Part shown: one piece after another, positions 17,328 through 40,750 of the stretch | Layout of the letters: each line of letters opens with the position of its first letter | How positions within the stretch are numbered: the stretch's first letter is position 1 | Assembly (NCBI GenBank): GCA_015295905.1 | Contig: DVEB01000006.1 | Coordinates: 1 to 40,898 of the forward strand | DNA: 40,898 bases | Reading direction: 5' to 3' | From: Synechococcales cyanobacterium M55_K2018_004 | GTDB lineage: Bacteria > Cyanobacteriota > Cyanobacteriia > Elainellales > Elainellaceae | Made by a program: the position numbers and the translations under genes | Notes under the pieces: generated by a model | Told to the model about the DNA's origin: nothing | Databases searched by the model: none | The model's input: only the letters and a program-made list of their open reading frames with translations

Positions 17328-17362
17328 CAGGCCCCGGTGTCTTGGCAAGACACCGGGGCCTG
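17328..17362. terminator. Strong hairpin after the GH3 gene
   Basis: Perfect 16-bp inverted repeat CAGGCCCCGGTGTCTT and its complement, with loop GGC, starting 14 bp after the GH3 stop. No T-run follows, so it may stabilise the mRNA end or attenuate rather than act as a classic intrinsic terminator. Confidence 0.6.
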
Positions 17363-17423
17363 AGAGCAACAACGATCGGGAGAGAAATCGTTAGAATGGC
17401 AACCGATACTTTTTGGCTCCGAG

Positions 17424-18131
17424 ATGAAACCTGTTTCTGAAAACCGTCATCTGTGGAAATTTTGCAGCGTTCCCAATATGCTGGCGCTGGGCTGTCTGGC
17501 TGCCTTTGCTCTGGGAGGGTGGTGGGTGTTGACCCAATCGCAGATTGACTTGGCAAATCCCAATGCCGTGATCAAGGCGTTTGGACACTCCGGTTGGGTT
17601 GGGGTGGTGGCCTACATAGCGCTGGTAACCCTGGCAATTATCGTAGGACCAATTCCCAGCACTCCGTTCACAATTGCTGCTGGCGCTGTGTGGGGGGGCA
17701 TCCCCGCTGGGATTTACGGCACAGTCGGCCTATTTCTGGGCAGTGTAGCGGCCTACTTTATTGGGCGAACGCTGGGCCGCACTGCTGTCAAAGCGTTGAC
17801 GGGAAAAGTGTTACACCTATCAAACCACCGCGGCGAACAGTTTTTAGGATGGCTGGTGTTTTTCAGCCATGCCTTTCCTATCTTGCCGAGTGAACTGGTC
17901 AGTTATGGCGCTGGAATTTCGGGCATGAATGCCTCCCGCTATGCCTTCAACAGCTTATTGGGGATCATTCCCAGTACATTTCTGTTGACGAATGTGGGGT
18001 CTGCTCTGACGATGAATCTTCCCCTGGCGATCGCCCTCGGCACGCTGTTTCTATCGACCATCATCATTCTTCCCTGGGGCATCAAACGCCACAACTGGTG
18101 GGGCTTGCGAGATGTGGTACGGTTTGAATAA
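17424..18131 (+). CDS. TVP38/TMEM64 (DedA-like, VTT domain) membrane protein
   Basis: 235-aa integral membrane protein with a VTT domain. Signature elements are GPIPSTPFTIAAGAVWGG (about 75-95), GLFLGSVAAYFIGRTLGR (about 100-120), and the re-entrant segment near SHAFPILPSELVSYGAGISGM. About five hydrophobic segments are visible. The family is linked to lipid scrambling or undecaprenyl-phosphate recycling and envelope integrity; specific function here is unknown. It lies 51 bp before the TamB-like gene on the same strand, likely co-transcribed, which fits a shared role in envelope lipid handling. Confidence 0.9.
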   Translation: MKPVSENRHLWKFCSVPNMLALGCLAAFALGGWWVLTQSQIDLANPNAVIKAFGHSGWVGVVAYIALVTLAIIVGPIPSTPFTIAAGAVWGGIPAGIYGTVGLFLGSVAAYFIGRTLGRTAVKALTGKVLHLSNHRGEQFLGWLVFFSHAFPILPSELVSYGAGISGMNASRYAFNSLLGIIPSTFLLTNVGSALTMNLPLAIALGTLFLSTIIILPWGIKRHNWWGLRDVVRFE

Positions 18132-18181
18132 CAGACGGTTCGGTTGACCTAGTTGGTTTGACTCAGGGGAGACGATTTTTC

Positions 18182-22354: not shown

Positions 22355-22732
22355 CTATAGACTCCAGTTCAAGGCGGTAGCCACTTGGCTGGCTAGTTGC
22401 AGGGGGTCAAATGGCTTGGCGATCGCAGCCCGAATGCCGAGGGCTTCATAGCGTCGTCGGTCTGCTGCTTGCACTTTGGCAGTGAGTAAGACGACTGGAA
22501 TCGAGCGAGTCGCTTCATTTTCTTGCAGTTTTTGGAACGTGGCGATGCCATCCATATCTGGCATCATGATATCGAGCAGAATAGCATCGGGTTTTTCCTC
22601 GATGGCGATCGCAATGCCCTCCATGCCAGAGGCTGCCGTCAAAACTTCCCATCCAGCAACCGTCTCCAGACAGATCTGGGCCACTTCCCGGATGTACTCC
22701 TCATTGTCAACCACCAAAATTCGCTTACTCAT
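22355..22732 (-). CDS. CheY-like single-domain response regulator
   Basis: 125-aa receiver domain with all key residues: the acidic pair and N-terminal strand (ILVVDNEEY, with Glu in place of the second Asp), the phospho-acceptor Asp in DAILLDIMMPDMDG, the Thr in VVLLTAK and the Lys in IAKPFD. With no output domain it should act by protein contact, as a shuttle or sink in a phosphorelay. The start codon lies 31 bp after the stop of the hybrid kinase on the same strand, so the two are probably co-transcribed and functionally paired. Confidence 0.93.
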   Translation of the reverse strand: MSKRILVVDNEEYIREVAQICLETVAGWEVLTAASGMEGIAIAIEEKPDAILLDIMMPDMDGIATFQKLQENEATRSIPVVLLTAKVQAADRRRYEALGIRAAIAKPFDPLQLASQVATALNWSL

Positions 22733-22763
22733 GTACTGATTAGGAGAGGGGGCAATACTCAGC

Positions 22764-25745
22764 CTACTCTGCTTTGGTAATACCGTTCAGAATATCCAGC
22801 ACACGGTGTTCGAACTCCTGGGTGCTGACGCGGCCTTTGGTGAGGAATTCGGTTTGTCCCAAGCGCAGGCGATCGCGCTCCTCCTCATTAACGTCCTGGG
22901 CCGAATAGACCACCAACGGCAGACTGGAGAGGCGGTTGTGTTGGCGCAACCATTCCACCACCACAAAACCATCGCCATCGGGCAGGCTCAAGTCCAGCAC
23001 TAGCAGATCAGGATTGAGTTGCTGGCTGAGGCGAATGGCTTCCCGGCCAGTGTGGGCGCAATAGGTCTCAATATTGTGGTGTTGGAAGAGCGTACAAAAC
23101 ACTTCCGCCAGGTCTACGTCATCTTCAATGATGAGAATTCGCAGCTTTTGGGAATGGCCTGTGAGGGCTGATCGCAGAGACTGAAAGAGCGAAATACTAT
23201 TCAGCGGTTTGTCTACCCAGCCCACATAGTTCTTCTGACTGCGGACTTCTGCCTGGGCTTCCGCTTCAGGAATGACGCTACACACCAGGATGGGGACATT
23301 GCGAGTCTCTGGACGGGCTTTTAGATTAGCCATCACATCCCACCCATTCATTTCGGGCATCATCATGTCCAGTAAGATCACATCCGGCTGACGGGCGATC
23401 GCCACTTCCACCGCCTTTGCCCCCGACTCCACGGTCACCACTTGGTAGCCACGCTGTTCCAGTAATGCTTGCAGCACAGACAGGGTGGAAGGGTCATCGT
23501 CGCAGACCAGCACCAGTGGGCCTTTGGGCGAATCAGCGGTGGCTGGCAAAGGGGCGTTGGTGGCAAGGCTGCCCCCTTTCCCGGCTAGTGGAATCGTGAA
23601 GTAGAAGGTACTGCCCACGCCTAGGGTGCTCTCGACCCAGATCTGCCCGTTGTGCTGGTGCACAATGCTGCGACAGATGGCCAGCCCCAACCCGGTGCCA
23701 TCGTTGTTGCGGGAGTCGGAAGCATCCACTTGTTGAAACCGTTCAAAAATCGTATCGAGCTTGTCAGCGGGAATGCCACGTCCCTGATCCTTAACAGTAA
23801 ACAGCAGGTAGGGAGGCTGACAAAGAGGACAGCGGGGCGGCTGGTTGGCGTCAGAGGCAAGGGGAGGGACTGGCGAGTCGATCCGTTCAGCACTGAGGTA
23901 GACCGTTTCACCCCGGGGTGAGAACTTGATGGCATTACTCAGCAAGTTGGTCAGGGTCTGGATAATGCGATCGGCATCAGCATAGAAGGAGGCCGAACAG
24001 GAAGAAACCTTGAGGGTGATCCCAGCTTTGTCGGCGATCGCCTGTACTGTATCCACCGCCTCGGTCAGCAGCTTTTCTACCTCACAGATCTCTTTGGCCA
24101 TCTTCACCTTGCCAGACTCGATCCGCTCAATGTCCAAGATGTCGTTGATCAGGCGCACCAGCCGGTCGGTACTATCGACTGCGATTTGCAGGAGGCGTTT
24201 GCCCCGCTCTGAGGTAGGGTCTAGCAGGCCACTGGCCAGCATTCCCAGAGAGCCGTGGATCGACGTCAAGGGAGTACGCAGTTCATGGCTGACCACTGAG
24301 ATAAACTCGTCCTTCATACGTTCGACCTGTTGCCGCTCGGTAATGTCGCGGAAGGCGATGACGGCTCCCACAATTTCGCCCTCTTCCCAAATGGGTGTGC
24401 TGACGTATTCAACGGGGAGGCTGGAGCCATTGCGTCGCCAGAACTGCTCCGTATTCACCTGGCGCACGGCTCCATCTCGGAGGGAAGTGTAGATGGGCGA
24501 CTCAGAGAAGGGGTAGGGAGTCCCGTCTGGGCGCGTGTGGGGCAGGATCAGACCAACTGGGCTGCCGATTAATTCTTCCTGGGTGTAGCCCAACAGTCGT
24601 AAGGCGGCAGGGTTAGCAAAGGTAATCCGTCCCTGACGATCGAGGCCGCATAGCCCCTCCCCAATTGCGTTCAAGAGCAATTCATTCTGGTGACTGAGGC
24701 GCTGCAAGGTTTCTTCCGCCTCTTTTTGCTCACTGATGTCACGCAGGATGACAGTGAAAATCGTCTCTCCACCCTGACTCAGCTTGGAGATCGAGGCTTC
24801 CGCCGGAAACTCTGTTCCATCCTTGCGGCGCCCAAAAATAGGGCGGCGTTCGTCCGCAGTTCGCAGGGCATGCTCTCCCATGCGTCGCGCCTTGCCAGAG
24901 GACGCGCCAAAGTTTTGCACATGGCTCCGATGAGCGGCGATCGCACTCTGGGGCAGCAAGATATCTAAGGGTTTACCTAACACTTCAGCGGCAGTGTAGC
25001 CAAAAATCCGTTCGGCTCCCTGGTTGAACAGGGTGATCTGCTGCTCTAGATTGACTGAAATGATGGCATCGTCGGCAATTTCCAAAATTCCTGCAAACCG
25101 CGCCTGGGAGACGCGCAAGGCCGCCTCAACCCGCTTTCGTTCCTCTAACTCCTGTTGCAGTTTTTGATTGACGCTGATCAGTTCGGCAGTTCGCTCTGCG
25201 ACGCGCAGTTCTGTCTCGCCCTTCGACTTGCGCAGTGCTGCTTCCGTTTGCTGGTGGGCGGTTTCTAAGTCCTGGGCCGGGGTGATGTTGAAGCCAATGA
25301 GGAACACCCCCGTGATGGCGCCATTTGCCTCTCGTAGGGGACTGTAGGTTATTTCATAGCTGGAGCGATCGCCGCTGACCAGACGGGCATCGCCTAGGGG
25401 GGCGTATTCTGTAGCAGGGGGGGCCAGGGGTTCAACAGTCCGCAAGCGATCGCCTGCCATAGCCTGGTCAAGGGCCGCTCGCATTTTACTCAAGCTCTGG
25501 GGAAAGCTGGCCAACGCCTGACTAAGCGACAGCCCGACCTGGGGCCGAAAGCCGAAAATGTGTTCAAATTCCTGTTGGTAAAGCTGATTAAAGGCAGTGA
25601 AGCGGTAGTCTGTCTTGCCAGCATCATCCACCCGCTCAAAGGCTGCAATCAGTGCTGGCACGCCTTCCACCAGAGCACGCAAGGTTGCCAGTTCAGCGAT
25701 CAACTGATCGTTTGATTTTTCTCGGTCTTGCATATGCCACGCCAT
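22764..25745 (-). CDS. Hybrid sensor histidine kinase (PAS-PAS-PAS-HisKA-HATPase-REC-REC)
   Basis: 993-aa soluble kinase; no membrane segment is visible. Domains in order: a PAS-like sensor (about 20-160), a short coiled coil with TELRVAERTAELISVNQKLQ, PAS (about 215-340), PAS (about 350-475), HisKA with His487 in SHELRTPL, and HATPase with the N box NLLSNAIKFS, DQGRGIP and GTGLGL. Two receivers follow, with acceptor Asps in VILLDMMMPEMNG and LLVLDLSLPDGDG. An insertion in the ATPase lid region contains a CPLC pair. Three PAS domains suggest cytoplasmic sensing of a cofactor-bound or redox signal, which is not identified. The gene is followed 31 bp later by the CheY-like gene. It is 232 bp downstream of the Hpt-containing regulator that could complete a phosphorelay. 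Confidence 0.93.
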   Translation of the reverse strand: MAWHMQDREKSNDQLIAELATLRALVEGVPALIAAFERVDDAGKTDYRFTAFNQLYQQEFEHIFGFRPQVGLSLSQALASFPQSLSKMRAALDQAMAGDRLRTVEPLAPPATEYAPLGDARLVSGDRSSYEITYSPLREANGAITGVFLIGFNITPAQDLETAHQQTEAALRKSKGETELRVAERTAELISVNQKLQQELEERKRVEAALRVSQARFAGILEIADDAIISVNLEQQITLFNQGAERIFGYTAAEVLGKPLDILLPQSAIAAHRSHVQNFGASSGKARRMGEHALRTADERRPIFGRRKDGTEFPAEASISKLSQGGETIFTVILRDISEQKEAEETLQRLSHQNELLLNAIGEGLCGLDRQGRITFANPAALRLLGYTQEELIGSPVGLILPHTRPDGTPYPFSESPIYTSLRDGAVRQVNTEQFWRRNGSSLPVEYVSTPIWEEGEIVGAVIAFRDITERQQVERMKDEFISVVSHELRTPLTSIHGSLGMLASGLLDPTSERGKRLLQIAVDSTDRLVRLINDILDIERIESGKVKMAKEICEVEKLLTEAVDTVQAIADKAGITLKVSSCSASFYADADRIIQTLTNLLSNAIKFSPRGETVYLSAERIDSPVPPLASDANQPPRCPLCQPPYLLFTVKDQGRGIPADKLDTIFERFQQVDASDSRNNDGTGLGLAICRSIVHQHNGQIWVESTLGVGSTFYFTIPLAGKGGSLATNAPLPATADSPKGPLVLVCDDDPSTLSVLQALLEQRGYQVVTVESGAKAVEVAIARQPDVILLDMMMPEMNGWDVMANLKARPETRNVPILVCSVIPEAEAQAEVRSQKNYVGWVDKPLNSISLFQSLRSALTGHSQKLRILIIEDDVDLAEVFCTLFQHHNIETYCAHTGREAIRLSQQLNPDLLVLDLSLPDGDGFVVVEWLRQHNRLSSLPLVVYSAQDVNEEERDRLRLGQTEFLTKGRVSTQEFEHRVLDILNGITKAE

Positions 25746-25782
25746 TTGTTCAATCAGTTGTTTCTTTAACCTAGCGTTGAAT

Positions 25783-25814
25783 GGAGCCTTGCTGTAAAGG
25801 AGCCTTGCTGTAAA
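25783..25814 (+). repeat. Two tandem 16-bp repeats
   Basis: GGAGCCTTGCTGTAAA at 25783-25798 and again, identically, at 25799-25814, in the spacer upstream of the hybrid kinase. Confidence 0.9.
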
Positions 25815-25977
25815 ACAGTACCTATCAAACAGAGCCTAGCTACGTCCGAGGTCCGAGATATACTGCGTCGGCCCATAGTCTCTCAGGTTGCAGTCCCTCC
25901 TTAAGTGGGCTGACTTCAGTGAAGACTACCAACCGTTGCTGGCCCAAGGCTGTCCCGTAGGCAACGGCAGACCTAAA

Positions 25978-28401
25978 CTAACCATGCGCCACTTCCTGAT
26001 CGGCAGCGGGCAGGGGCGCAAGCATGATGCGGCTGCGGCCTGTTTGCTTAGCTTGCTGAAGTGCTTCATCTGCGGCCCGGTAGAGCGATCGCAAGTCCTC
26101 GCCGTGCGACGGAAATTCGGCCACTCCAGCACTGAAGCTGACATGTCGCAGCGGGGGTTGGGCATCAGGGACGGGGTCTATAGCAGGCGTGTTGTTGCCA
26201 GTCGGTTCGGTGGGCACAAAGGCATGGTGTTTGAGGGTGTCCAGCACCTTGAGCAGTCGTTGCACTGCTCCCTTCTGGTTGACACCGTACATTCCCACCA
26301 CAAACTCGCCTCCCGCCCAACGAGCAACCACATCTTCACCATAAAAGGACTGCCGCAGCAGACCACCCAAGTAACGCAGCACCGCATCTCCCATGGCGTG
26401 ACCATATTGGCCGTTAATCTGCTTCAGCGCGTCTAGATCCAGCACGGCTAGGCAGAGGGGGTCACCGTGCTTCCTAGCCCGCTGCAAGAAGTGGTCGAGA
26501 TCCTGAGTGGATTTTTGCCGGTTTGCCACCTTAGTGAGCGGGTCTACCTCGGCGCGATCGCGCAGCAGCTTGAGCCGCTCTAGTCGATTCATAATGCGAG
26601 TGACTAGCTCTGGCCCCACAATTGGCTTGCTAATAAAGTCATCGGCTCCAGCCGTAAACACCTGATTCACGACTTCTGGTTCTGTGTGAGCCGTGAGAAA
26701 CAAGATCGGCAGGCCGCCCCAACGGGAATCATTCCGCACCACGCGGCACAGTTCAATGCCACTGATGTGAGGCATCTCCACATCCAGGATGAGTAGATCG
26801 GGAGAACAGGCTTCCAGGGTTTCCAGAAAGTGGCGCGGGTCGGCCAGCGTGGTGACGTGCAACCCCCAGGGACGCAGCAGAGTCTGTAGGGTGCTGAGGG
26901 TGCCAACATCATCGTCTACGATCATGACGCGGGAGGCGGCTTTGTCGATGCGCTGCAACACCCGTAGGACGATCTCCAGAATTTGATCGGGGGGCAGAGG
27001 TTTTTGCAAAAAGGTATGACGCCCCTGCTGAGCGATCGCCAGTCGGTCATTCACGTCTGCCTGGGCCGAGTAGACCAGGATGGGTGTAGGCGGGGTATGA
27101 CGGTTCAGATCTGCCAGCAGTGCTAGCCCATCTTCCAGGTGTTCAGCAATCTCTAGGTCCAGCAACACCACATCGGGGCGATCGCTGTGAAACTGGCGAC
27201 GGGCCGCAGAAAGGCTGAGGGCGATCGCTCCCCGCAGTCCATTTTTCTGCGCCTCTGCCACAATCTGTTCTGCCAGCACCCGGTCTGGGTCAACTACCAG
27301 CAACAAGGGACGCGATTCATCCTCACTTTCGGGGAGCAGGTGTTGACCGTGGGGCGGTCGCTCGATTTCGTGGCGCAATGCCATCACCCACTGTTGCAGC
27401 GACCGGCACTCTTTTTCCCCCAGTAACTTTTCCCCTTGGATCAACTGCTCAATTTGCCGTGCCAGTCGCGACCCTTCAGGAAAGCCAAACGTTCCTAGAG
27501 AACCCGCTAAGGTATGAGCTTCCTGCCGTGCCTGTTGTCGCAGTTCAGCGGTCAGCGCATGACTCTGGAGGGCCAGCACCGCCTGCTCAATCACACTCAC
27601 CTGCTCGCTCACTCGACCTTTGAAGCGGTTCCAGGTCTTCATAAGTAGGGCGATCGCCTGTTGCTTCAGCGGCTCGGCTGGCTCACTGGTGGTTGTCTTA
27701 GCAATTTCTGGTGAAGCAGGAGTTGGTTCCAGGGGCTTCAGCCGGTAGCCAATGCCATAGACCGTCTCGATCGCATCAGGGGGGAGTCCTGCTGCTTTTA
27801 ACTTCTGCCGTAACCCTTTGATGTGGGTCCGAACGGCCTCCTCGCCCGGTGTTTCATCGTAGGACCACAGGTGCTCCAAAATCATGCCGCAGCTAAACAC
27901 GCGGCGACTGTTGCGCAAAAACAGTTCCAGCAGGGCATATTCCTTAGGAGTCAGGGAAAGCGGTTTGCCATTGCAGGTGACTTCGCAACTCGTGGGGTCG
28001 AACCGCAATTTACCCCATTCCAACACTGGCATTGAGGCCATGCCGCTGCGTCGCAGCAAGGCCCGTACCCGCGCCACTAATTCCTCAGCATCGAACGGCT
28101 TGACAACGTAATCATCGGCTCCCGCATCCAGCCCGATCGCCTTATCGTGTCCGCTATCTCGTCCAGTCAGCAATAGCACAGGCATCGTATAGCCGTGCGA
28201 TCGCAACTCACGACAGAGCGAGATGCCATCCATGCGTGGCAGCATCACATCCAACAGAATCAGGTCATAGTCGTAGGCTTCCACCATCTCCCAGCCCGCT
28301 ATGCCATCGCTGGCCACTTCGACTGCATAGTTTTGGCTGGAGAGGATTTCCGTTAATGCCTGCGCTGCCAGTTGATCATCTTCAACGACAAGAATCCTCA
28401 T
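25978..28401 (-). CDS. Multi-domain response regulator REC-wHTH-Hpt-REC-REC-GGDEF
   Basis: 807 aa from the ATG at 28401, where the receiver motif begins (MRILVVEDD); an ATG at 28422 is less likely. In order: receiver 1 (acceptor Asp in LILLDVMLPRMDG); OmpR-type winged helix (about 128-225, LTPKEYALLELFLRNSRRVF to VYGIGYRL); an Hpt domain with the phospho-His in QEAHTLAGSLGTFG (about 290); receiver 2 (VVLLDLEIAEHLEDG); receiver 3 (LLILDVEMPHISG); and a GGDEF fold (about 615-790). The GGDEF signature reads WAGGEF, replacing the metal-binding Asp/Glu with Gly, so cyclic-di-GMP synthesis is doubtful. The protein joins DNA binding, phosphotransfer and a diguanylate-cyclase fold in one chain. It lies upstream of the hybrid kinase on the same strand. 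Confidence 0.92.
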   Translation of the reverse strand: MRILVVEDDQLAAQALTEILSSQNYAVEVASDGIAGWEMVEAYDYDLILLDVMLPRMDGISLCRELRSHGYTMPVLLLTGRDSGHDKAIGLDAGADDYVVKPFDAEELVARVRALLRRSGMASMPVLEWGKLRFDPTSCEVTCNGKPLSLTPKEYALLELFLRNSRRVFSCGMILEHLWSYDETPGEEAVRTHIKGLRQKLKAAGLPPDAIETVYGIGYRLKPLEPTPASPEIAKTTTSEPAEPLKQQAIALLMKTWNRFKGRVSEQVSVIEQAVLALQSHALTAELRQQARQEAHTLAGSLGTFGFPEGSRLARQIEQLIQGEKLLGEKECRSLQQWVMALRHEIERPPHGQHLLPESEDESRPLLLVVDPDRVLAEQIVAEAQKNGLRGAIALSLSAARRQFHSDRPDVVLLDLEIAEHLEDGLALLADLNRHTPPTPILVYSAQADVNDRLAIAQQGRHTFLQKPLPPDQILEIVLRVLQRIDKAASRVMIVDDDVGTLSTLQTLLRPWGLHVTTLADPRHFLETLEACSPDLLILDVEMPHISGIELCRVVRNDSRWGGLPILFLTAHTEPEVVNQVFTAGADDFISKPIVGPELVTRIMNRLERLKLLRDRAEVDPLTKVANRQKSTQDLDHFLQRARKHGDPLCLAVLDLDALKQINGQYGHAMGDAVLRYLGGLLRQSFYGEDVVARWAGGEFVVGMYGVNQKGAVQRLLKVLDTLKHHAFVPTEPTGNNTPAIDPVPDAQPPLRHVSFSAGVAEFPSHGEDLRSLYRAADEALQQAKQTGRSRIMLAPLPAADQEVAHG

Positions 28402-28841
28402 GGCGCTCCCTGGGCGTCTCACCCGCTCACGCCCATCCTAGAACATGGGGGGCAGCAGGCTGAGGAAGGTTTATAAAAATTTCAGTCGAAGGTAGAACAG
28501 TCCAGTAGCGATTGGGATATCCGCACGAAATCTCTCTCCCAAGTTGGGAGGGGAACTTTGAGATGGCTTAGATCCCCTGCTCCCAAGCTGGGGGAAGAGG
28601 CTGGGGGATGAGGGCCTGCAAAAGTAACATGCTCTCACCCGCTTAACCCAAATTGCTCACTTCATCAAACGCTGCAACTCGTAGGCGATCGAGTTACGTC
28701 AGTTCTGACTAAGAGTTCTGATTAAGAGAGTTCGCGGTGACCCGGAACTCTCTTAATGTTCCGTGCGCGTTACGCACGCAGCATCAAGGGTTTCAGTCTA
28801 TCCGGAAGTCACATGAGTAGGAGATCTCATGAGTAGGAGAT
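28402..28841. other. Gene-free spacer with hairpins
   Basis: About 440 bp. It holds a remnant of a family C end (28637-28655), a perfect 12-bp inverted repeat TTAAGAGAGTTC...GAACTCTCTTAA (28722-28756), a small CGTGCG/CGCACG hairpin (28762-28778) and the start of a 16-bp duplication (28812-28843). No protein gene is supported. Confidence 0.55.
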
Positions 28842-30357: not shown

Positions 30358-31884
30358 ATGCTACCCTACGCAACTCGTCCCCTTGCCCCGATCTCTTTGG
30401 CGGTGCTGATGGCGATCGCCCCCACTGCTCCAACTCTGGCGCAACTCATCCAACCGACTGCTGACTCTCCTGCTGCATCCCCTCCGACTCCTTTGCCCAG
30501 TCAGCAGATCCCCCTACTCACTGCGCCTAGGCGCCTGCCTGGAGCACAGCCGACCAGTCCGCTGCCTGCCGCCGTGCCAACAACCTATACCTTGGGAGCG
30601 GGCGATCGCATCCACGTCGATGTCTTCCGTGTGCCCGGCTACAGTGGAGAGCGCGAAGTGCTGGTGAACGGCACCCTCAACCTGCCCATGGTGGGCAGTA
30701 TTGCGGTGCAAAACCTCACCCTTGAGCAGGCCGAGGCCGCCATTTCAGCCGCCTATAGTCGTTTTCTCCGCCGTCCCATCGTTACCGTCACGCTGCTGGC
30801 GGCGCGTCCACTCCAGGTTGGGATTGCGGGGGAAATCACCCGCCCGGGTTCCTACAGCCTCACCCTGCAAGGGTCCCAGTTCCCAACCGTGACTCGACTG
30901 CTGCAAACGGCTGGCGGTGTGACCCAGGCAGCAGACCTGCGGCGCGCCCAGATCCGCCGTCTAGTGGGTAACCGCACCCAGGTGATCAACGTGGATCTGT
31001 GGGCGCTGATTCAGAATGGCGACCTGCGCAACGACGTGAGTCTGCGGGATGGTGATACGGTCTTCATTCCCACGGCAGAGCGGATTGACCTGGCAGAAGC
31101 CCCCCAAATTGCAGCAGCCAGCTTTGCGGCAACAGTCAACCAACCGGTCAATGTGGCAGTGGCAGGAGAAGTCTTCCGTCCTGGCCCCTACACCGTGTCT
31201 GGGGGCACGGCTCGCACAGGCGAGGCGGGGGTGCCTGGCGGTAGCGCTGGTAGCTCCAATAATGTGCCGACGGTGACCCGTGCCATCCAGATGGCAGGGG
31301 GAATTAAGCCAATGGCCGATATTCGACGGATCCAAGTGCGGCGGCTAACCCGCTCTGGCACCGAACAAATTTTGCAGGCAAACCTGTGGGATCTGCTGCA
31401 AAAAGGTGATTTGCGACAGGACGTGATCTTGCAGGAGGGCGATACGATCCTGATTCCAACAGCAACGGAAATGACCCCAGAGGAGAGTGCCCAAATTGCC
31501 GCTGCCAGTTTCTCCCCCAGTGTGATCCGCGTCAATGTGGTGGGAGAAGTGAATCGTCCAGGTGCGATCGAACTGCCTCCCAACGTACCCATGAACCAGG
31601 CCATTCTTGCTGCTGGTGGGTTTAATACCCGGGCACGGCGTAGCTCGGTGCGGTTGATCCGCGTTAACCCTAATGGCACTGTCACCCAGCGGCGCATCGA
31701 GGTGGACTTTGCCCAGAATGTCAACGACGCTAACAATCCCACCCTCTATAACAACGATGTGATTGTGGTGGGACGGTCGGACATTGCCAGTGCTGGCGAT
31801 GCGCTAGGCAACCTCCTGCGGCCAGTCAGCGGCATCCTGTCCATCCTCAACTTACCTTTCCGGATCTTTAACTTGTTTGATTAG
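30358..31884 (+). CDS. Wza/KpsD-like polysaccharide export protein with SLBB domains
   Basis: 508-aa envelope protein. It has a signal peptide at about 1-29 (LAVLMAIAPTAPTLAQ), a Pro-rich linker, a Poly_export domain (about 76-160, YTLGAGDRIHVDVFRVPGYS to ARPLQVGIAGEI) and three SLBB-type modules (about 160-240, 260-345 and 385-465), each with the GEV.RPG pattern (GEITRPGSY, GEVFRPGPY, GEVNRPGAI). Each module is followed by the segment on which SLBB folds depend (TRLLQTAGGVTQ, TRAIQMAGGIKP, NQAILAAGGFNT). It likely forms the outer-membrane or periplasmic channel for exopolysaccharide. No ribosome site is visible because a 16-bp tandem array precedes the ATG. It heads a three-gene export locus. 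Confidence 0.92.
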   Translation: MLPYATRPLAPISLAVLMAIAPTAPTLAQLIQPTADSPAASPPTPLPSQQIPLLTAPRRLPGAQPTSPLPAAVPTTYTLGAGDRIHVDVFRVPGYSGEREVLVNGTLNLPMVGSIAVQNLTLEQAEAAISAAYSRFLRRPIVTVTLLAARPLQVGIAGEITRPGSYSLTLQGSQFPTVTRLLQTAGGVTQAADLRRAQIRRLVGNRTQVINVDLWALIQNGDLRNDVSLRDGDTVFIPTAERIDLAEAPQIAAASFAATVNQPVNVAVAGEVFRPGPYTVSGGTARTGEAGVPGGSAGSSNNVPTVTRAIQMAGGIKPMADIRRIQVRRLTRSGTEQILQANLWDLLQKGDLRQDVILQEGDTILIPTATEMTPEESAQIAAASFSPSVIRVNVVGEVNRPGAIELPPNVPMNQAILAAGGFNTRARRSSVRLIRVNPNGTVTQRRIEVDFAQNVNDANNPTLYNNDVIVVGRSDIASAGDALGNLLRPVSGILSILNLPFRIFNLFD

Positions 31885-32188
31885 ACAGATTTACCTAGAC
31901 AGAAACCTCAGGGATATCGCCCACCCGATCACGTTAGCCCGTTGGAACGCTTAGGGTGAATCTTAGTCACACGAATTTGACCAGATCACTCTGGCCAGCG
32001 TCTTTGCACCGCATCTCATTCACCTACCTGAAAACAGACCGATGAATGCAATGTAACTGTCACGACCAGTGAATCCAACGCTTCCTAGTGAACAGGCACA
32101 GTTTCTTGACTGGCATTTTCCCGATGCAGCGGGCGATCGCCGTAAGAAGTAACCAGGAAGCCAGTCCCTTATCTCCCCCACACTGCCC
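31885..32188 (+). other. Gene-free spacer in the export locus
   Basis: 304 bp between the SLBB gene and the Wzc-like gene. I see a HIP1 site and no convincing hairpin, promoter or gene. Confidence 0.4.
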
Positions 32189-34426
32189 ATGAAGACTGGA
32201 GCTATGCCCCAACCCCAGACTCTCGCCCTCCCAAGCGAGCCATATACCTACGAGTCAGCCGAAGGGGGGTTGAACTTACCACAAATGTTTTCGGCACTGC
32301 GGCGCAGAGCCCTGCTGATTGCTGGGATCACAGCCCTAGTTACAGGGGGTGCCTTTGTGCGGGCGATGATTGACACGCCAGTGTTTCAGTCGCAGGCCGA
32401 GATTTTGACCCAGCCCTTCACGGCAGAGAGTCGATTGGTCTCGTCTGTCCCAGAAACCCTGACTTCGCAGGCGCCTGTGCCTCGCGTGGTGATCGACAAC
32501 ACCATCCTGCGCGTGCTGACCAGTCCCCGGGTGATTCAAATTGCCGTGGACAAGCTGAAGACGCGCTACCCTGACCTGACCTATGGAGATATAGCGCGAA
32601 ACCTCAAGCTCCAGCCTAGCGGCAAGGACAGTAACGTGCTGCAACTCTCCTACCAGGGAGAAGACCCAGAGCAGGTTCAAACCATTTTAGGGGCGGTGTC
32701 GCAAGCATTTTTGGACTACAGTTTGCAGTCACGGCAGGCCGATATCAAGCGCGGCATTGAATTTGTGGAACAACAACTGCCCATTCTGCAAAAGAATGTG
32801 GAAGATTTGCAGGCTAATCTGCAACAGTTGCGCCTGCGTAACGACTTGGTTGACCCAGAATCGCGGGGGCAGCAACTGACTGGACAAATTTCTGCCTTCA
32901 CGCAGGCCCAACTTGAAAATGAGGTGCAACTGAAGCAACTGCGGACAGTCTACGCAGACCTGCGGCGACAGCTTGCTTCACGCAGCCAGGAAGATGCAGC
33001 CTCCTCTGCCCTTAAGGACGCTCCCCGGTTCCAGAGTGTGCTGGGGGAACTCCTTAAAGTGGATACTCAACTGGCAGAAGCCTCCACCATTTTTTTAGAC
33101 ACAACCCCTGAAATTCAAACGCTGCGAGAGCTACGGCAAAATTTGCTGGGGATTCTGGCACGGGAAGGAGGACGCGTTGAGGCCCAAATTCAAAGCCAGA
33201 TCAATGAACTGGAAGCGCGCGATCGCGCCCTGAAGCAGACCATTCGCAACCTGAACGGCAACGTCAAAACCCTATCGGGTATTGCCCGCGAGTATACCGA
33301 CATCCAGCGCGAACTGGAGATCGCCACAGAAAACCTCAACCAATTCCTGGCTAAGCGCGAAGCCCTGCGGATTGACTCAGCCCAGCGCGAAATTCCCTGG
33401 GAATTGATCACCCCGGCCACCCTACCTACACCTTCCATGACCAGTGTGCAAAACCAAGTCTTGTTGGGGCTGGTGTTGGGCCTGTTGCTGGGGCTGGGGA
33501 CAGCCATCTGGCTAGAACGCATGAGTGATGTCCTGCACTCCTCCCGCGACATCAAACGCATCGCCAAGCTACCGTTGCTGGGAGCCATCCCCTTCCAAGA
33601 GCAACTCAACCGTCCCGCTGAGGAGGCGGCAGTCTGGCTCCAGAGTGTAACCGAAGCAGAAATTGTTTCCGTGGGGAATAACACAATCTATCGGGCAATC
33701 CCCTTCTTTGAAGCCTTTCGATCGCTCTACACCAACATTCGCCTGCTCAGTCCTGATAACCCTGCCCGCTCCCTCGTCATCAGTTCACCCGCCTCAACAG
33801 ATGGCAAGTCCGTTGTCTCGATTGGTCTGGCCCAGGCGGCAGCGGCCATGGGGCAGCGAGTCCTGCTGGTGGATGCGGACTTGCGCTATCCCCGTCTGCA
33901 CCAATACCTAGGGGTGCCAAACGACCAAGGACTCACCGATGTTATTTCTGCTAGGGTGGGGCTGAAGGCCGCTCTGCACCAGTCTTCCCTAGAACGCAAC
34001 CTCTACGTGCTCACTGCCGGTGCTGCCCCTCCTGATGCCACCCGCTTCCTGGCCTCCCAGCGGATGCAGAGCTTTATGGCACAGGTGCAGAAATATTTCG
34101 ACTTGATTATCTACGACACCCCTCCCCTGTTGGGATTTGCCGATGCTTACCTGCTAACTCCCCAAACCGAGGGCATGGTGTTGGTGGTGGGACTCGGTAA
34201 ACTACGAGCCGCACAGCTTGAGGAAGCGCTGGAGCAGTTGGGCGTGTCGGGGGCAACCGTGTTGGGCATCGCTGCCAACGGCTCCCGCGAACCTGTGTTG
34301 GCGACAAAGAGCTACGATCGCCAAACTCTGGAGATTGAAGACCGCCGCAAGCGCAACGGCAAGGTGCCCCATGAAGTCGCCGAGGAATTGGTTGGCTCAG
34401 TTGGAGAGAAGGCGAGTCGGGAATAG
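32189..34426 (+). CDS. Wzc-like chain-length determinant fused to a BY-type tyrosine kinase
   Basis: 745-aa inner-membrane protein. The Wzz domain starts near residue 30 (two membrane helices, about 40-58 and 428-448, flank a large periplasmic coiled-coil region with the PNQ-like exit VQNQVLLGLVLGLLLGLG). The cytoplasmic kinase part has a Walker A variant SSPASTDGKSVVSIGLAQ (Lys540), Walker A' VLLVDADLRYPRLH, and Walker B LIIYDTPPLLGFADA. The C-terminal tail has only one Tyr, unlike the Tyr-rich clusters of Wzc or CapB, so autophosphorylation control may differ. The family controls polymer length and export of exopolysaccharide. Starts at ATG 32189; an ATG at 32204 has a ribosome-like GGAG too close. 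Confidence 0.92.
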   Translation: MKTGAMPQPQTLALPSEPYTYESAEGGLNLPQMFSALRRRALLIAGITALVTGGAFVRAMIDTPVFQSQAEILTQPFTAESRLVSSVPETLTSQAPVPRVVIDNTILRVLTSPRVIQIAVDKLKTRYPDLTYGDIARNLKLQPSGKDSNVLQLSYQGEDPEQVQTILGAVSQAFLDYSLQSRQADIKRGIEFVEQQLPILQKNVEDLQANLQQLRLRNDLVDPESRGQQLTGQISAFTQAQLENEVQLKQLRTVYADLRRQLASRSQEDAASSALKDAPRFQSVLGELLKVDTQLAEASTIFLDTTPEIQTLRELRQNLLGILAREGGRVEAQIQSQINELEARDRALKQTIRNLNGNVKTLSGIAREYTDIQRELEIATENLNQFLAKREALRIDSAQREIPWELITPATLPTPSMTSVQNQVLLGLVLGLLLGLGTAIWLERMSDVLHSSRDIKRIAKLPLLGAIPFQEQLNRPAEEAAVWLQSVTEAEIVSVGNNTIYRAIPFFEAFRSLYTNIRLLSPDNPARSLVISSPASTDGKSVVSIGLAQAAAAMGQRVLLVDADLRYPRLHQYLGVPNDQGLTDVISARVGLKAALHQSSLERNLYVLTAGAAPPDATRFLASQRMQSFMAQVQKYFDLIIYDTPPLLGFADAYLLTPQTEGMVLVVGLGKLRAAQLEEALEQLGVSGATVLGIAANGSREPVLATKSYDRQTLEIEDRRKRNGKVPHEVAEELVGSVGEKASRE

Positions 34427-34462
34427 GAATGATGGAGTAGACGTTGGACAGGAGGGAACACC

Positions 34463-35896
34463 ATGAAATTAAATGCGACTGACTCATCCTGGCTGCCTCC
34501 GCTGGGAGATCTGGTCGGTTGGCCGCCGGCCAAACCTCAGTCGGAAGGCTGGGAGCCATTGCCGGATGTGGTGGCTCAGGCGCAGACCTCCACAGTACAG
34601 CGGTGGCTGGCAGATATCCGGCAGCCGGGAATGATTATGGCGGGGGTGGCGATCGCCGCCACTACTGCCAGCGCGGCCAAGCTGCTGGTGCCGCCGGCCC
34701 AATATGAGGGCAATTTTGAGATTGCGGTCAGTCCCCTCAGCCGCGCCACAACGACGATCCCGGCTCCCCAAGTGGAGGATGTGAACCAGCCAGTGGCCGT
34801 GCCTACAGTAGACAGCGAGACCCAGGCCAAGCTGCTGAAAAGCCCGCGTTTCCTGGAACCCGTGCTGGCACGGCTGCGGGCACAGGGCATGGAGATTGAC
34901 TTTGCCACCCTGCGCCGCAATCTGGAAATTACACCCGCTACAAAGTCGGGGGTGCTGACAGTGCGCTATTGGGACAGCGATCGCCAGCGAGTGCAACAGG
35001 TGACCGAGCAAGTGATGCAAGCGTATGTGCAGGAAGGCCAGCAGTGCCAAACGCAGACCTGTCTGGGGCTGGAGTTTGTCGAGACGCAGATCCCCCGCAT
35101 CCAGCAGAAAGTGCAAACCCTACGGACCGACTTGGCTGCTTTTCGGGCACGCTACGACATCAATAACCTAGAGGTCTACGGCAAGCAACTGCGCCTCTAC
35201 ACAACAGAACTCTCCCGCCAAGAAGCGGCCACGCGGGTGGAGTTAGACAAAACCCGCAGCCAGTTTCACCTGTTGCAAGAACGGCTCGCCTTGAAACCAA
35301 ACGAGGCGATCGCCCAGTCACTCCTCCAGCGCGACCCCCAGTATCAAGCGCTATTTCAGCAATTTCAGACCATTGAAAAGGGAATTGCCGAGCAGTTCCG
35401 CAGCCCCCATGTGAGCCAGGAAACCCTCAAATCTCTCTATGCCGCACACCAACAGGTGTTGGCTCAGTTGCGGCAACGGGGACAGGTGGTGTTGGCACAA
35501 CAGTTTGCGGGCGATCGCCCCCCCGTTCACCCTGTGTTTGAGTCCACTGTGGATGCAGCCACCCTGCAGCAATGGTTTGACACAGCCACCCTCCTCCAGA
35601 CCTTCCAAGTGCGGCAACAAACGATCGCCACCATCCAAGCCCACCTCAACCAACAGGTGGACCAGTGGGCAGCGATCGCCCGACGCTATACCGACATGCA
35701 ACAACAACTCCAAGTTGCCAGCGAAAGCTTGAACCTGTACCTAAACCGACGAGAAGCCTTTAAGGCAGACCCAGGGGCAGCCCAAGTGGCCTGGCGACTC
35801 GTCACCCCCCCCAGCATCACCGATCCCCGCAGCCCCCTGGAGGCATGGTTGGCTCGTCATCACGTCCAACCTGAGGCGGCAGCCCCCCAGGGCTAG
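34463..35896 (+). CDS. Wzz/GumC-like chain-length protein without kinase
   Basis: 477-aa protein starting at an ATG with AGGAGG upstream, 37 bp after the Wzc-like gene. It has one hydrophobic segment (about 57-74), then a Wzz-type region (TQAKLLKSPRFLEPVLARLR, RNLEITPATKSGVLTVRYWD) and long coiled coils (about 190-270 and 395-440). It closes with the family segment RRYTDMQQQLQVASESLNLYLNRREAFK. The second membrane helix and the kinase domain of the neighbour are absent: the chain ends 45 residues after that segment. The upstream neighbour has the same segment order, so this looks like a diverged paralogue of its Wzz part. A partner or scaffold in the same export machine is likely. Confidence 0.85.
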   Translation: MKLNATDSSWLPPLGDLVGWPPAKPQSEGWEPLPDVVAQAQTSTVQRWLADIRQPGMIMAGVAIAATTASAAKLLVPPAQYEGNFEIAVSPLSRATTTIPAPQVEDVNQPVAVPTVDSETQAKLLKSPRFLEPVLARLRAQGMEIDFATLRRNLEITPATKSGVLTVRYWDSDRQRVQQVTEQVMQAYVQEGQQCQTQTCLGLEFVETQIPRIQQKVQTLRTDLAAFRARYDINNLEVYGKQLRLYTTELSRQEAATRVELDKTRSQFHLLQERLALKPNEAIAQSLLQRDPQYQALFQQFQTIEKGIAEQFRSPHVSQETLKSLYAAHQQVLAQLRQRGQVVLAQQFAGDRPPVHPVFESTVDAATLQQWFDTATLLQTFQVRQQTIATIQAHLNQQVDQWAAIARRYTDMQQQLQVASESLNLYLNRREAFKADPGAAQVAWRLVTPPSITDPRSPLEAWLARHHVQPEAAAPQG

Positions 35897-36559: not shown

Positions 36560-37195
36560 ATGAATTTCAAACCTTTCGCTGTAAAGATGGCAGCAGTTGC
36601 TGCTGTAGTGGCCGCAGGTGCGATCGCCTCTGCAACCCATGCACAAGCTGCTGTAATTAGAGCTGGGGATACCATTGACATTTCTAACCGCCCTGGCTTT
36701 GGCGTTCTTGTTGTGGGAACTGGCCTAACAGGTCCCGCTCCAAATGTTACGAAGCTTGATTTCTCTCCAACGGGTGACGTCGGGCAGATTCAAGTCACAG
36801 GTGGAACGGGTGGATTTGCTCCCTACATTGGTAGCACTGGTTTCATCAAGGATCTGACCTTCGTGGGGGGGGTCTCTGGCTTTGTTGATGATTTCCTTTC
36901 AATTGCCCCTGACCTGTTCTTTGATCTCACGCGCGCAACTGTAACCGTTGGTTCTGTCAGCCGTGGTTTTCGCCCTGTTGATGTGGAACTGGTTGGCGTC
37001 TTCACCAATAGCGCAGGTAGCATTTTGAGTGAGGGGCTGCTCACCGCTCAGCTGCGTCTTGCTAATGTCAATCAACGACGCTCATACTCTATCTCCGCTG
37101 AGGCAATCCCCACGCCTGCTCTGCTGCCAGGTCTGGCTGCTCTGGGCGCAATGGCACTGCGCAAGCGCAAGGAAGAGGCTGAGGCTGAAGCCTAA
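36560..37195 (+). CDS. PTPA-CTERM sorting-domain protein (exosortase substrate)
   Basis: 211-aa secreted protein. It has a signal peptide at about 1-31 (MAAVAAVVAAGAIASATHAQA), a beta-rich body without recognised fold, and a C-terminal sorting tag of about 30 residues: AIPTPALLPGLAALGAMALR followed by KRKEEAEAEA. This is a PTPA motif, a hydrophobic helix and an Arg/Lys cluster, the tripartite PEP-CTERM-like signal cut by exosortases. The tag continues past the basic cluster with an acidic EEAEAEA tail. The presumed enzyme is encoded 1.3 kb downstream. The body has no Cys and carries repeats of Gly/Val/Thr. Function beyond surface or secreted location is unknown. Confidence 0.9.
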   Translation: MNFKPFAVKMAAVAAVVAAGAIASATHAQAAVIRAGDTIDISNRPGFGVLVVGTGLTGPAPNVTKLDFSPTGDVGQIQVTGGTGGFAPYIGSTGFIKDLTFVGGVSGFVDDFLSIAPDLFFDLTRATVTVGSVSRGFRPVDVELVGVFTNSAGSILSEGLLTAQLRLANVNQRRSYSISAEAIPTPALLPGLAALGAMALRKRKEEAEAEA

Positions 37196-37763
37196 AGCGG
37201 GTTGTTGGGTTGATGGAGGAGTGCTGGTCTGGCTCATGCCGCGATCGCCCTCCTCCATCGGCCCTCTGAGCAACTCAACCAGCCAGAAAATCAAACTCTC
37301 TTGCACAGCTTGACTGTTGTGGGAGTGGGGTGAAGGGTGTTGGGGAGCGATCGCTCCGCAGGGGCACCATTGACCCCCCTTTTTTTGCGAGGGTTTTTGC
37401 AAGGAGATGTACTCGTGTTCTCCCCTCATCCCCTAGCCTCTACTCTCCACCGTGGGAGCAGAGGAGCACGGCTAGAGGATTCAAAGTCCCCCTCCCACGA
37501 TTGATACCGATTCCGTCGGTTATTGAGTCGGTTCACACCACAACAAACCGCTACTTTATAGACGGATTTCGTATGAGAGGGGAATTGGGGGCACAGCCTG
37601 CTTCCCGTAGGGTGAACAGCCTGAGTCATGATCCGCGGTTTACGAAGTTTTCGTGAACTCACGATAAAAGTCCCGTAGATCTACTGAAACCCTCCCGAAG
37701 TGATGAGGGCCGCCCTGAAAAGTGTGACGGACCCCACCTAAAATCCTTACAGGATCTACCACT
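37196..37763. other. Gene-free spacer between PTPA-CTERM and HpsJ-like genes
   Basis: 568 bp. An inverted repeat GATGGAGGAG/CTCCTCCATC (37212-37221 and 37250-37259) follows the PTPA-CTERM stop and may end its transcript. A family A repeat lies at 37504-37574. The rest has no supported gene. Confidence 0.5.
37504..37574 (-). repeat. Palindromic repeat, family A, copy 3 (reverse orientation, shortened)
   Basis: Reads ATACCGATTCCGTCGGTTAT then TGAGTCGGTT on the plus strand and ends CGGATTTCGTAT. On the minus strand it aligns with copies 1 and 2 at both ends, but only one arm of the central palindrome remains (about 14 bp), so the inner hairpin is lost. Confidence 0.65.
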
Positions 37764-38360
37764 ATGGCTGTTAATACGGTTCAAAACTTTACCTCCCCAA
37801 CCGTCCCCAAAAACCTGTGCCGCATTGTTGGCCTGGTTTGTTTGGCTGGTTTTTTCATTGATATTCTGGCGCTCGCAGTCCCTCCCAACCCAATGGCGTT
37901 GGAATGGCGGGTCAATTTCTTGCAACAAGTGGGCGATCGCAGCATTGTCTTATTGTTTGGCTCTGCCCTGATGATGTATGGCATGTTCGAGAACCGCCGC
38001 ATGTTGCGACAGTTCTCCCTGGTCATGCTGGCGGTTGGGGTGTTTTTCTTGGTTTCTTCGCTGCTGGTGATTCGAGACAGTTTGGTGCTGCAACAGCAAG
38101 CCATCCAAACGATTAGCAACCAAGCATCGCAACTACAAACCCGGATCCAGCAGGCGCAGGCAAATCCTGGTAGTTTGCCTGAAAACGTGACCCCGGAACA
38201 GCTCACCCAGGCCAGCCAGCAGTTGACTGCCCAAGCGGAGACGTTGAAGCAAAATGCCCGTCTTGGGATTACCCGGGTCGGGTTTTCTAGCATTGGCAAC
38301 CTTGTCGTTGTTGGCATGGGGTTGATCAGTCTGGGACGGCTTGGCCTCAAGCGTCGTTAG
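37764..38360 (+). CDS. HpsJ-like membrane protein
   Basis: 198-aa protein with three or four hydrophobic segments (about 20-40, 55-75, 80-100 and 173-192) and a helical, Gln-rich periplasmic or cytoplasmic coiled coil in between (about 104-165, QQQAIQTISNQASQLQTRIQ, QLTQASQQLTAQAETLKQN). This layout matches HpsJ-family proteins, found near hormogonium-polysaccharide and cyanoexosortase genes; that assignment rests on layout and my family recall, not an alignment. The ATG at 37764 has AGGA ten bases upstream. It lies 98 bp before the exosortase gene on the same strand. Confidence 0.7.
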   Translation: MAVNTVQNFTSPTVPKNLCRIVGLVCLAGFFIDILALAVPPNPMALEWRVNFLQQVGDRSIVLLFGSALMMYGMFENRRMLRQFSLVMLAVGVFFLVSSLLVIRDSLVLQQQAIQTISNQASQLQTRIQQAQANPGSLPENVTPEQLTQASQQLTAQAETLKQNARLGITRVGFSSIGNLVVVGMGLISLGRLGLKRR

Positions 38361-38458
38361 GGGTGGCTGGCGCACGTAACTCCTTCGCCAATTTCTCCGC
38401 AGCTCCCTCGCCAAGCAACGACCCGTAGGGGCGAGTCTTGACATCCAGCCATGGCGTT

Positions 38459-39433
38459 ATGGATGCAGTGTCAGCACACTCGCCCGTCCCCACAGGCCCC
38501 TTTTTGCAAGTAGACGTTTCTATGCAGTGGCTCGCGCAACTCCAACAAGCAATCGTGACCTGGTTTCAAACTGCCGTTCGTACTACGCATGGCCGCATCG
38601 TTTTGTGTGGCCTGTTGGTTGGATTGGCCTATTTCCCCTTCTGGTTTGGCTTCTTAGCCCAACGCGCCTTGAAGGGGGCTTCCAGTTGGTTCCTGATTGC
38701 GTCGATGTTGGCCTTGGGCCTCAGTGAGTTCTGGTTCAGACGCAAACGATTGCTGAAGCTCCAGGCTTCCGAGGAAGACCAAATGCTGGGACACATCTTG
38801 ATCGTGGTTTGTGTCGTGTTGTTCCCTTTCTTTCGGTTTGCCCTCTGGTCTCAATCTCTGGTGTGGCTGGCAACCCTGATCGGCATCGCCATTAGCACTT
38901 GGGGGCTATCGTTCTTTCGTCACTTCTTCTTCCCCGCTTTTTTGCTGGGGATGTCGGTCTACCCCCGTCTGGGCATTATTTCCCGCAATATCTGGGAGTT
39001 TTTTGTGCCACCCAATTCGCTGGAAAACCTGATGGCCCAGTTAGGCACAATGGGCCTGAACTTAATCGGGCAAGAGGCCACGGCCAATGGTCGGTTTATT
39101 TCCTTGCCCGATGGAACGGTTGAAGTGGGTTGGGGCTGTAATGGCCTAGATATGGCGGTGACGATGAGCGCCGCAGGACTGCTGTTGGGTTTTTTGTTCA
39201 GACTGACGCGATCGCAGACTCTCCTGCTCATTGCCTCTGGCTTCATCCTTGCCATGATCTTTAACATCCCCCGCATCATGCTCGTCACTATTGCCAACGT
39301 CTATTGGGGAAAGTGGTGGTTTGATTTTTGGCATGGCTTCTGGGGAGGACAGATCTTCGTTGGCATCCTGTTCACAATTTATTATTATGTATTGATGGCA
39401 ATCGTAAAAGATGAAATAAAGTCTAGTGCCTGA
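38459..39433 (+). CDS. Cyanoexosortase (exosortase-family transpeptidase)
   Basis: 324-aa polytopic membrane protein with about eight hydrophobic segments. The catalytic residues of exosortases are visible in order: Cys227 in GWGCNGLDM, Arg272 in FNIPRIMLVT, and His292 in FDFWHGFWGGQ. Exosortases cut PEP-CTERM-type tags and probably move the protein to the surface. The ATG at 38459 is used; a TTG at 38438 or an ATG at 38522 is possible and would not affect the core. The class (A, B or C) cannot be settled without profiles. It sits between an HpsJ-like gene and a PTPA-CTERM gene, with another PTPA-CTERM gene just upstream, a classic enzyme-substrate neighbourhood. Confidence 0.9.
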   Translation: MDAVSAHSPVPTGPFLQVDVSMQWLAQLQQAIVTWFQTAVRTTHGRIVLCGLLVGLAYFPFWFGFLAQRALKGASSWFLIASMLALGLSEFWFRRKRLLKLQASEEDQMLGHILIVVCVVLFPFFRFALWSQSLVWLATLIGIAISTWGLSFFRHFFFPAFLLGMSVYPRLGIISRNIWEFFVPPNSLENLMAQLGTMGLNLIGQEATANGRFISLPDGTVEVGWGCNGLDMAVTMSAAGLLLGFLFRLTRSQTLLLIASGFILAMIFNIPRIMLVTIANVYWGKWWFDFWHGFWGGQIFVGILFTIYYYVLMAIVKDEIKSSA

Positions 39434-39994
39434 AACTTATCCGGCTTTATGTAAAAAATTTTCTCAAATTCATCCTGTAGGTGAGATGAAAAAAGTAGCA
39501 TGATACCTCTGCCCTTTCTTGTTTCTATCTGACAAATACACTATGTTTTCCTAATTCTATGAAACTTTTCTTGATTCCATATGCTATCATGTTGTCAAAT
39601 TAATAGCCGATTAGTTAGATTCTGAACTAAGAGTATAGACTTAATTGACTAACATGAAGTCTAATAACCTAGAACCTTCTTGCATGAAATTCAAATAAAC
39701 TGCTGAGCAGTTAGCATTGTCTTCGAGGCAAGGGTTTTGGGGGGACTCAATTCTGTTTTCAGACACCTCTGATCAGCATTGAACTTTTCAGTTTTGAACC
39801 TGTAATCATTGAAAGTAAACCATCAGGTTCTTCAGATGTGGTCATCTACCAAATGATGAAAGTCCGTTATTCGACTTTCTGATCTCCTTCAACACAAACC
39901 TTATCAACAATAGGTTGTGGGATGCTTCATTATCTTCGATGTATTTCACACTGTGTTGATTGCAAAATGACTACACTTTTACCAGTTGAGAACC
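39434..39994. other. AT-rich gene-free region upstream of the second PTPA-CTERM gene
   Basis: About 560 bp, clearly more AT-rich than the rest of the window. It carries several small palindromes: AACTGCTGAGCAGTT (39698-39712), GAAAGTC...GACTTTC (39858-39879) and CACAAACCT...AGGTTGTG (39893-39918). No protein gene is visible. It probably contains the promoter of the PTPA-CTERM gene. Confidence 0.5.
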
Positions 39995-40750
39995 ATGATA
40001 AATCGTGTCTTAAGAGGAACTGCTTTACTTGGGGCGATTGCCGCAGGTTTAATGCTCACTCCTCATTCCGTTGAAGCCTTCACTATCAGACGTACGCTGA
40101 CAGGTGATCCTCGTTCTGGCAATCCTGACCAATTACGTCTGACGCTCACCATCCAAACAGGAGCAGATGCAGGCCTTGCTGATAACCAGGCGTTATGGAC
40201 AGTTGATATCGATTCTCCTGCGCATCCAAATATTAGGTTAGATGAGTTTTACTTCAACCTAAGCGATCGCATTCGCAACTTTGTCACCTTTTCGAACTTT
40301 AGCCCCGTTAGTGATACAGGCAATACTTGGGGAGTCTTCTCCCCTGCAAATAATGCACAAGGGTCGGGTGGTGCTGATTTCGATTTTGGTGTTCGTAAGG
40401 CTGTGCCAGGTGGGCGACCTAATGAGCGCACACCCGATGTCACCAATGCAGTTAACCTTGTCTTCCGCATGACCTTAAGCGATGCCTCGCTGGGAGCATT
40501 GCAACTCACTGACTTCACAGCAGCTCGCTATAGTGAAAGCAGAGATTCTTTGCTCGGTTCAGGTCAGGTTGGCGCTCACCTCCAGTCCCTCACCGTCAAT
40601 TCCACAACCTGTCCTGAGGGGGGTTGCAGTAGAAGCGGCTTTGTCATGGGTGAGATTCCTACACCCGCCATGCTACCTGGTCTGATGGGGCTGGCTGCCG
40701 TTGCAATGCGTCGCAGAAAGGCAGAGGAGGACGCTGAGCAATCGGCCTAA
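39995..40750 (+). CDS. PTPA-CTERM sorting-domain protein (second exosortase substrate)
   Basis: 251 aa from the ATG at 39995 (a TTG at 39986 would add three). It has a signal peptide at about 1-28 (LLGAIAAGLMLTPHSVEA), a beta-rich body that resembles PEP-CTERM secreted proteins with a cohesin-like or beta-sandwich fold, and a C-terminal tag EIPTPAMLPGLMGLAAVAMR then RRKAEEDAEQSA. The tag has the same PTPA, helix, basic-cluster and acidic-tail layout as the protein at 36560-37195, although the bodies share no clear similarity. One Cys pair is present near TTCPEGGCSRSG. The gene is AT-richer than its neighbours. It ends with a strong terminator at 40829. Confidence 0.88.
   Translation: MINRVLRGTALLGAIAAGLMLTPHSVEAFTIRRTLTGDPRSGNPDQLRLTLTIQTGADAGLADNQALWTVDIDSPAHPNIRLDEFYFNLSDRIRNFVTFSNFSPVSDTGNTWGVFSPANNAQGSGGADFDFGVRKAVPGGRPNERTPDVTNAVNLVFRMTLSDASLGALQLTDFTAARYSESRDSLLGSGQVGAHLQSLTVNSTTCPEGGCSRSGFVMGEIPTPAMLPGLMGLAAVAMRRRKAEEDAEQSA

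Follow-up and report, generated by a model that had tools for sequence, protein, structure and literature searches.

The plus-strand interval 36560-40750 of the window, by which we mean the whole 40,898-nucleotide stretch of cyanobacterial DNA that was analysed, is a four-gene locus in which the gene for an HpsJ-like protein and, after it, that for an exosortase lie between two genes for PTPA-CTERM proteins. A preliminary description of this DNA had placed substrates, enzyme and accessory protein together, and all four genes were found where it had put them; its assignment of the three roles was right, and profile searches sharpen it to cyanoexosortase C, the HpsJ-like associate of that enzyme, and PTPA-CTERM. 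It is highly probable that the locus is a cyanoexosortase C/PTPA-CTERM sorting system, situated beside polysaccharide-export genes and acting by the mechanism proposed below. The coordinates of the genes, tags and predicted active-site residues are collected in Table 1. The start of the enzyme is probably TTG 38438, ATG 38459 or the in-frame ATG 38522, the last giving a protein of 303 aa, and the open-reading frame of substrate 2, listed as 39986-40750 from a TTG, has a better start at the in-frame ATG 39995 (251 aa).

Table 1. Position, strand and supporting evidence for the features of the sorting locus and of the export genes upstream of it
Feature	Position	Strand	Evidence
Wza-like polysaccharide export protein (Poly_export + SLBB)	30358..31884	+	PF02563 74.5 bits, PF10531 97.1 bits
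Wzc-like tyrosine autokinase / chain-length protein	32189..34426	+	NCBIfam TIGR01007 136 bits, cut-off 108
Wzz-like chain-length determinant	34463..35896	+	weak: PF02706 16.4 bits, TIGR03007 31.5 bits, both below cut-off
Substrate 1, PTPA-CTERM protein predicted to be exported, with a predicted small beta-barrel body	36560..37195	+	211 aa; NF033465 46 bits
PTPA-CTERM sorting tag of substrate 1	37106..37183	+	NF033465 positions 1-26
Acidic extension EEAEAEA, behind basic cluster of substrate 1	37172..37192	+	sequence; class statistics
HpsJ-like protein, cyanoexosortase C-associated	37764..38360	+	198 aa; NF050019 279 bits
Cyanoexosortase C	38438..39433	+	331 aa from TTG; NF033464 405 bits; PF09721 106.6 bits
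Predicted nucleophile Cys (WGCNG)	39137..39139	+	invariant, 26 homologues
Predicted active-site Arg (N-x-x-R motif)	39272..39274	+	invariant, 26 homologues; exosortase motif per PMC1569441
Predicted active-site His (H-x-x-x-G motif)	39332..39334	+	invariant, 26 homologues; exosortase motif per PMC1569441
Substrate 2, PTPA-CTERM protein predicted to be exported, unrelated body	39995..40750	+	NF033465 43.9 bits
PTPA-CTERM sorting tag of substrate 2	40655..40729	+	NF033465 positions 1-25
Acidic extension AEEDAEQSA, behind basic cluster of substrate 2	40721..40747	+	sequence; class statistics

The N-termini of both tagged proteins, judged by eye, resemble signal peptides (...SATHAQAA in substrate 1 and ...TPHSVEA in substrate 2), and both proteins end, as had been described, in a PTPA motif, a hydrophobic helix and a basic cluster, the complete C-termini being IPTPALLPGLAALGAMALRKRK-EEAEAEA for substrate 1 and IPTPAMLPGLMGLAAVAMRRRK-AEEDAEQSA for substrate 2. 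The PTPA-CTERM profile NF033465, with a curated cut-off of 29, matched each protein at its C-terminus, with 46.0 bits for substrate 1 and 43.9 bits for substrate 2. The bodies that carry these tags have no detectable similarity to each other (BLASTP E 0.27), in agreement with the earlier statement that they are unrelated. That of substrate 1 belongs to a 24-member family of PTPA proteins encoded mostly just 5′ of the HpsJ-like and enzyme genes on the same strand; this family is a strict cluster of the PTPA bodies in the set, which alone was used because iterative body profiles drift and draw in most PTPA proteins. The AlphaFold2 model of substrate 1 is an all-beta small barrel with a helix at residues 190-210 (mean pLDDT 77.9), for which no match in the PDB stood out (best Foldseek E 0.038; VIA-align Z of 7.9 or less, at the level of common arrangements), and since no distinct structural relative was found, we claim no function for this body. 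Substrate 2 has a single relative by body among 195 genomes, 54% identical and also PTPA-tagged. Relatives of this body with VPEP tags, as would be expected from body swapping, were not found in the 195 genomes, a comparison made uninformative by there being just the one, PTPA-tagged, relative.

Behind the basic cluster both tags continue into an acidic tail, which had been called unusual and proposed to mark a substrate class. The tail is real and rare in VPEP tags, but it is typical of PTPA tags and not special to these two, as at least two acidic residues follow the basic cluster in 67 of 95 PTPA tails compared to 6 of 63 cyanobacterial VPEP tails (p 6e-15). As a class mark it is therefore enriched but not universal, 28 of the 95 PTPA tails having fewer than two acidic residues and 13 having none. 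In the original description of the PEP tag (PMC1569441), by comparison, the last element is a basic region of five residues. The NF033465 profile runs 26 positions and therefore already covers the start of the extension; with a tag profile of the first 21 positions, blind to the extension, an acidic extension was still present in 48 of 63 cases in the GTDB-locus set, which overlaps in part with the set of 95 PTPA tails. Read from these tails, the extension is a mark of the known PTPA class as a whole and not of a new subclass, and it would most simply belong to the tag's cytoplasmic end.

Whether such a tail does anything in sorting is a separate matter, on which two readings compete. The acidic residues might have no sorting function and reflect neutral, lineage-biased drift of the C-terminus behind the basic cluster, a reading to which we give slightly less than an even chance and which bears on the function of the tail, not on the identity of the locus. 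Its patchiness fits such drift: besides the 28 tails poor in acidic residues, only 3 of 15 tails in genomes G045, G078, and G091 carry the extension, and among named loci it is less common with more divergent enzymes (11 of 19 compared to 37 of 44, p 0.05). Against drift stands the composition of the extensions: across many unrelated bodies, 27% of their residues are acidic in PTPA tags, compared to 9% in VPEP tags from the same phylum. The difference holds when only extensions of at least six residues are considered (acidic in 67 of 85 PTPA and 5 of 31 VPEP tails). Alternatively, the extension may be a functional fourth element of the tag that helps to steer substrates towards cyanoexosortase C or its HpsJ-like partner and keeps them from the cyanoexosortase A of the same cell; we offer this only tentatively, as a rather unlikely but specific proposal.

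The PTPA tag and the enzyme go together well beyond this locus. Among 98 genomes, cyanoexosortase C exceeded its cut-off in 23, and its HpsJ-like partner was found in exactly those 23, while PTPA tags over the cut-off occurred in the same 23 genomes and in G020, G029, and G034, whose assemblies are 68-78% complete (co-occurrence Fisher p 1.8e-19, in a test that treats related genomes as independent). A scan of GTDB recovered 63 cyanoexosortase C loci, all cyanobacterial by record title, the nearest being that of Leptolyngbya foveolarum ULC129bin1 (57%). Nodosilinea nodulosa PCC 7104 is an example of a relative that can be cultured and has cyanoexosortase C. The examined flanking DNA held a PTPA-tagged open-reading frame at 44 of these 63 loci, lying on the same strand upstream in 26 and downstream in 15, and an HpsJ-like gene at 49 of the 63; 54 of 64 tags lay on the strand of the enzyme. 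Since many of the loci sit near contig ends, these flank counts are lower bounds, and several loci show no PTPA gene close to the enzyme. The arrangement of the window is seen again at other loci: in L227, from cf. Phormidesmis sp. LEGE 11477, the series of tag, HpsJ-like gene, enzyme, and tag is accompanied on one side by Wza-, Wzc-, and Wzz-like genes, and in L177 and L228 the enzyme likewise lies between tagged genes. Co-occurrence and neighbourhood thus support the suggestion that the tag sets apart a class of substrates belonging to this enzyme, although not as something new, the class being already catalogued as PTPA-CTERM.

Variations on this pairing were also observed. Two copies of cyanoexosortase C over the cut-off lie on different contigs in each of five genomes (G004, G013, G030, G032, and G055). 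At loci L149, L154, L156, L121, and L162, PTPA genes near the enzyme or the HpsJ-like partner encode a helix of variant sequence, PTPAL(V/I/L)PAALGFGAAML or similar, that differs from the PTPALLPGLIGMG usual in dispersed genes of some of the same genomes. A pairing of tag subtype with enzyme paralogue, considered for the local PTPALVPAALGFGAAML tags of some loci, was rejected, two such genomes having one enzyme and standard tags too.

Searching the 5.0 Mb genome of the present organism with the PTPA profile gave seven matches, six of them over the cut-off, including the two at the locus. Two of only six such tags in the whole genome therefore flank the matching enzyme, which is far beyond chance. 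The search also bears on the earlier description of the locus as self-contained, which was too strong. PTPA tails do occur elsewhere, and because four other PTPA proteins over the cut-off are encoded outside the locus, it is not self-contained; a separate cyanoexosortase A, with VPEP tags, is present in the genome as well, and three assemblies have cyanoexosortase C on one contig and a PTPA gene with an HpsJ-like gene on another. These three loci, from one genus (L165, G016:C63; L144, G032:C298; L145, G026:C461), have the PTPA and HpsJ-like genes adjoining one another, with Wzc/Wzz-like genes also near the pair in L165 and L144, and fragmented assemblies may be partly behind the separate contig of their cyanoexosortase C.

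The presence of that cyanoexosortase A (contig C256, 299 bits), the only other exosortase in the genome, together with the one architecture common to exosortase tags, would allow the PTPA proteins to be processed by cyanoexosortase A or by both enzymes, in which case neighbourhood would not mean a dedicated pairing. We consider this very unlikely, as PTPA tags track cyanoexosortase C across genomes, and cyanoexosortase A is accompanied by an HpsJ_A and a TIGR04153 associated protein of its own and has a few VPEP tags elsewhere in the genome to act on.

The identity of the enzyme itself is clear from class profiles. Cyanoexosortase C (NF033464, cut-off 225) matched residues 48-324 with 405 bits, and the three other classes compared stayed far below their cut-offs, with 56.9 bits for cyanoexosortase A (TIGR03763, cut-off 150), 26.6 for cyanoexosortase B (TIGR04156, cut-off 300), and 53.2 for XrtA/EpsH (TIGR03109, cut-off 208); the Pfam exosortase family PF09721 agreed, with 106.6 bits. 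The HpsJ-like protein likewise reached 279.3 bits with NF050019 (cut-off 140), compared to 73.5 for HpsJ_A and 53 for HpsJ_B, both under their own cut-offs. The preliminary description had recognised a polytopic protein with the exosortase Cys, Arg, and His, and all three are invariant across 26 aligned homologues, as C206, N248/R251, and H271/G275 numbered from ATG 38522, the Cys being Cys234 in the 331-aa form; Cys, N-x-x-R, and H-x-x-x-G are the proposed exosortase active-site residues (PMC1569441). That the protein might belong to another membrane-protein family merely resembling exosortases, for which only its general hydrophobicity speaks, can be dismissed with near certainty given the strong PF09721 and NF033464 matches and the invariant motifs. 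A search by sequence for a solved exosortase structure returned no credible match, and the enzyme had no match among plasmid records.

Upstream of the locus, the three export genes (30358-35896) fit the usual setting of an exosortase. The link to polysaccharide export is modest, because recognisable homologues were present in the flank of only about 8 of the 63 GTDB cyanoexosortase C loci (Wza-like in 7, Wzc-like in 8, and Wzz-like, near the enzyme, in 7). Two further gene groups were seen in the window. A response-regulator cluster on the minus strand (22355-28422) comprises a single receiver protein, a large hybrid histidine kinase, and a protein of 814 aa whose one chain combines receiver, winged-helix, Hpt, and GGDEF domains. 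At 12712-22168, an Omp85-family gene on the minus strand lies near plus-strand genes for a GH3-family protein, a VTT-domain protein, and a protein of 1336 aa with weak similarity to TamB, possibly an outer-membrane assembly group.

In the proposed mechanism, the substrates would be exported by Sec, and the PTPA tag would then anchor them in the inner membrane, with its motif at the periplasmic face, the helix next, and the basic cluster and acidic tail on the cytoplasmic side. Cyanoexosortase C would cut at or near the PTPA motif through its Cys/Arg/His site, and the mature protein would either be set free or be handed on to a surface acceptor associated with exopolysaccharide, with the help of the HpsJ-like protein. 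This scheme builds on family membership, the invariant active-site residues, co-occurrence, neighbourhood, and tag anatomy as found here, and borrows topology, cleavage, acceptor, and surface role from the exosortase literature. In Nostoc punctiforme, deletion of cyanoexosortase B reduced several extracellular PEP-CTERM proteins as well as motility and biofilm formation; tag removal was not directly observed, as tag peptides were detected in neither strain (PMC12188702). Our literature search turned up no experimental work on cyanoexosortase C or on PTPA proteins, and the term PTPA-CTERM was absent from the literature searched, which included few subscription journals. Because this term is mentioned nowhere there, the class appears, within that literature, to be unstudied at the bench.

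The residual interest of the locus lies in the acidic extension and in the presence, within one genome, of two exosortase classes whose tags can be told apart. Having two enzyme classes and two distinguishable tag classes, this genome could be used to test how parallel exosortases distinguish their substrates, and the acidic extension is a concrete and easily mutated feature for such a test of discrimination.

Among characterised systems, the locus resembles the cyanoexosortase B/PEP-CTERM system of N. punctiforme (PMC12188702) in that its cyanobacterial exosortase is accompanied by a Wza-type export gene and by proteins, presumably exported, that carry a C-terminal tag, and differs from it in the class of the enzyme, which falls far short of the class B cut-off, and in a tag that has PTPA, usually with an acidic extension, in place of PEP. 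With the proteobacterial EpsH/PEP-CTERM system (XrtA; PMC1569441) it shares the tag architecture, the Cys, N-x-x-R, and H-x-x-x-G residues, and the link to exopolysaccharide genes, but the XrtA score is again below the cut-off, the motif is PTPA and not PEP, and the published PEP tag stops at its basic region. Its closest counterpart is the cyanoexosortase C/PTPA-CTERM system of NCBIfam (NF033464, NF050019, and NF033465), of which enzyme, HpsJ-like partner, and tags all exceed the curated cut-offs, and by these profile matches the locus belongs to a system for which NCBIfam already has a name, and a model for each part. The order of substrate, HpsJ-like gene, and enzyme recurs in many of its relatives, and two tagged genes flank the enzyme here as in L177, L227, and L228. 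Nothing essential differs from that system, the body of substrate 2 being rare, and the less familiar detail is that most PTPA tags, as far as the compared tails indicate, end in a short acidic tail unlike other cyanobacterial tags.
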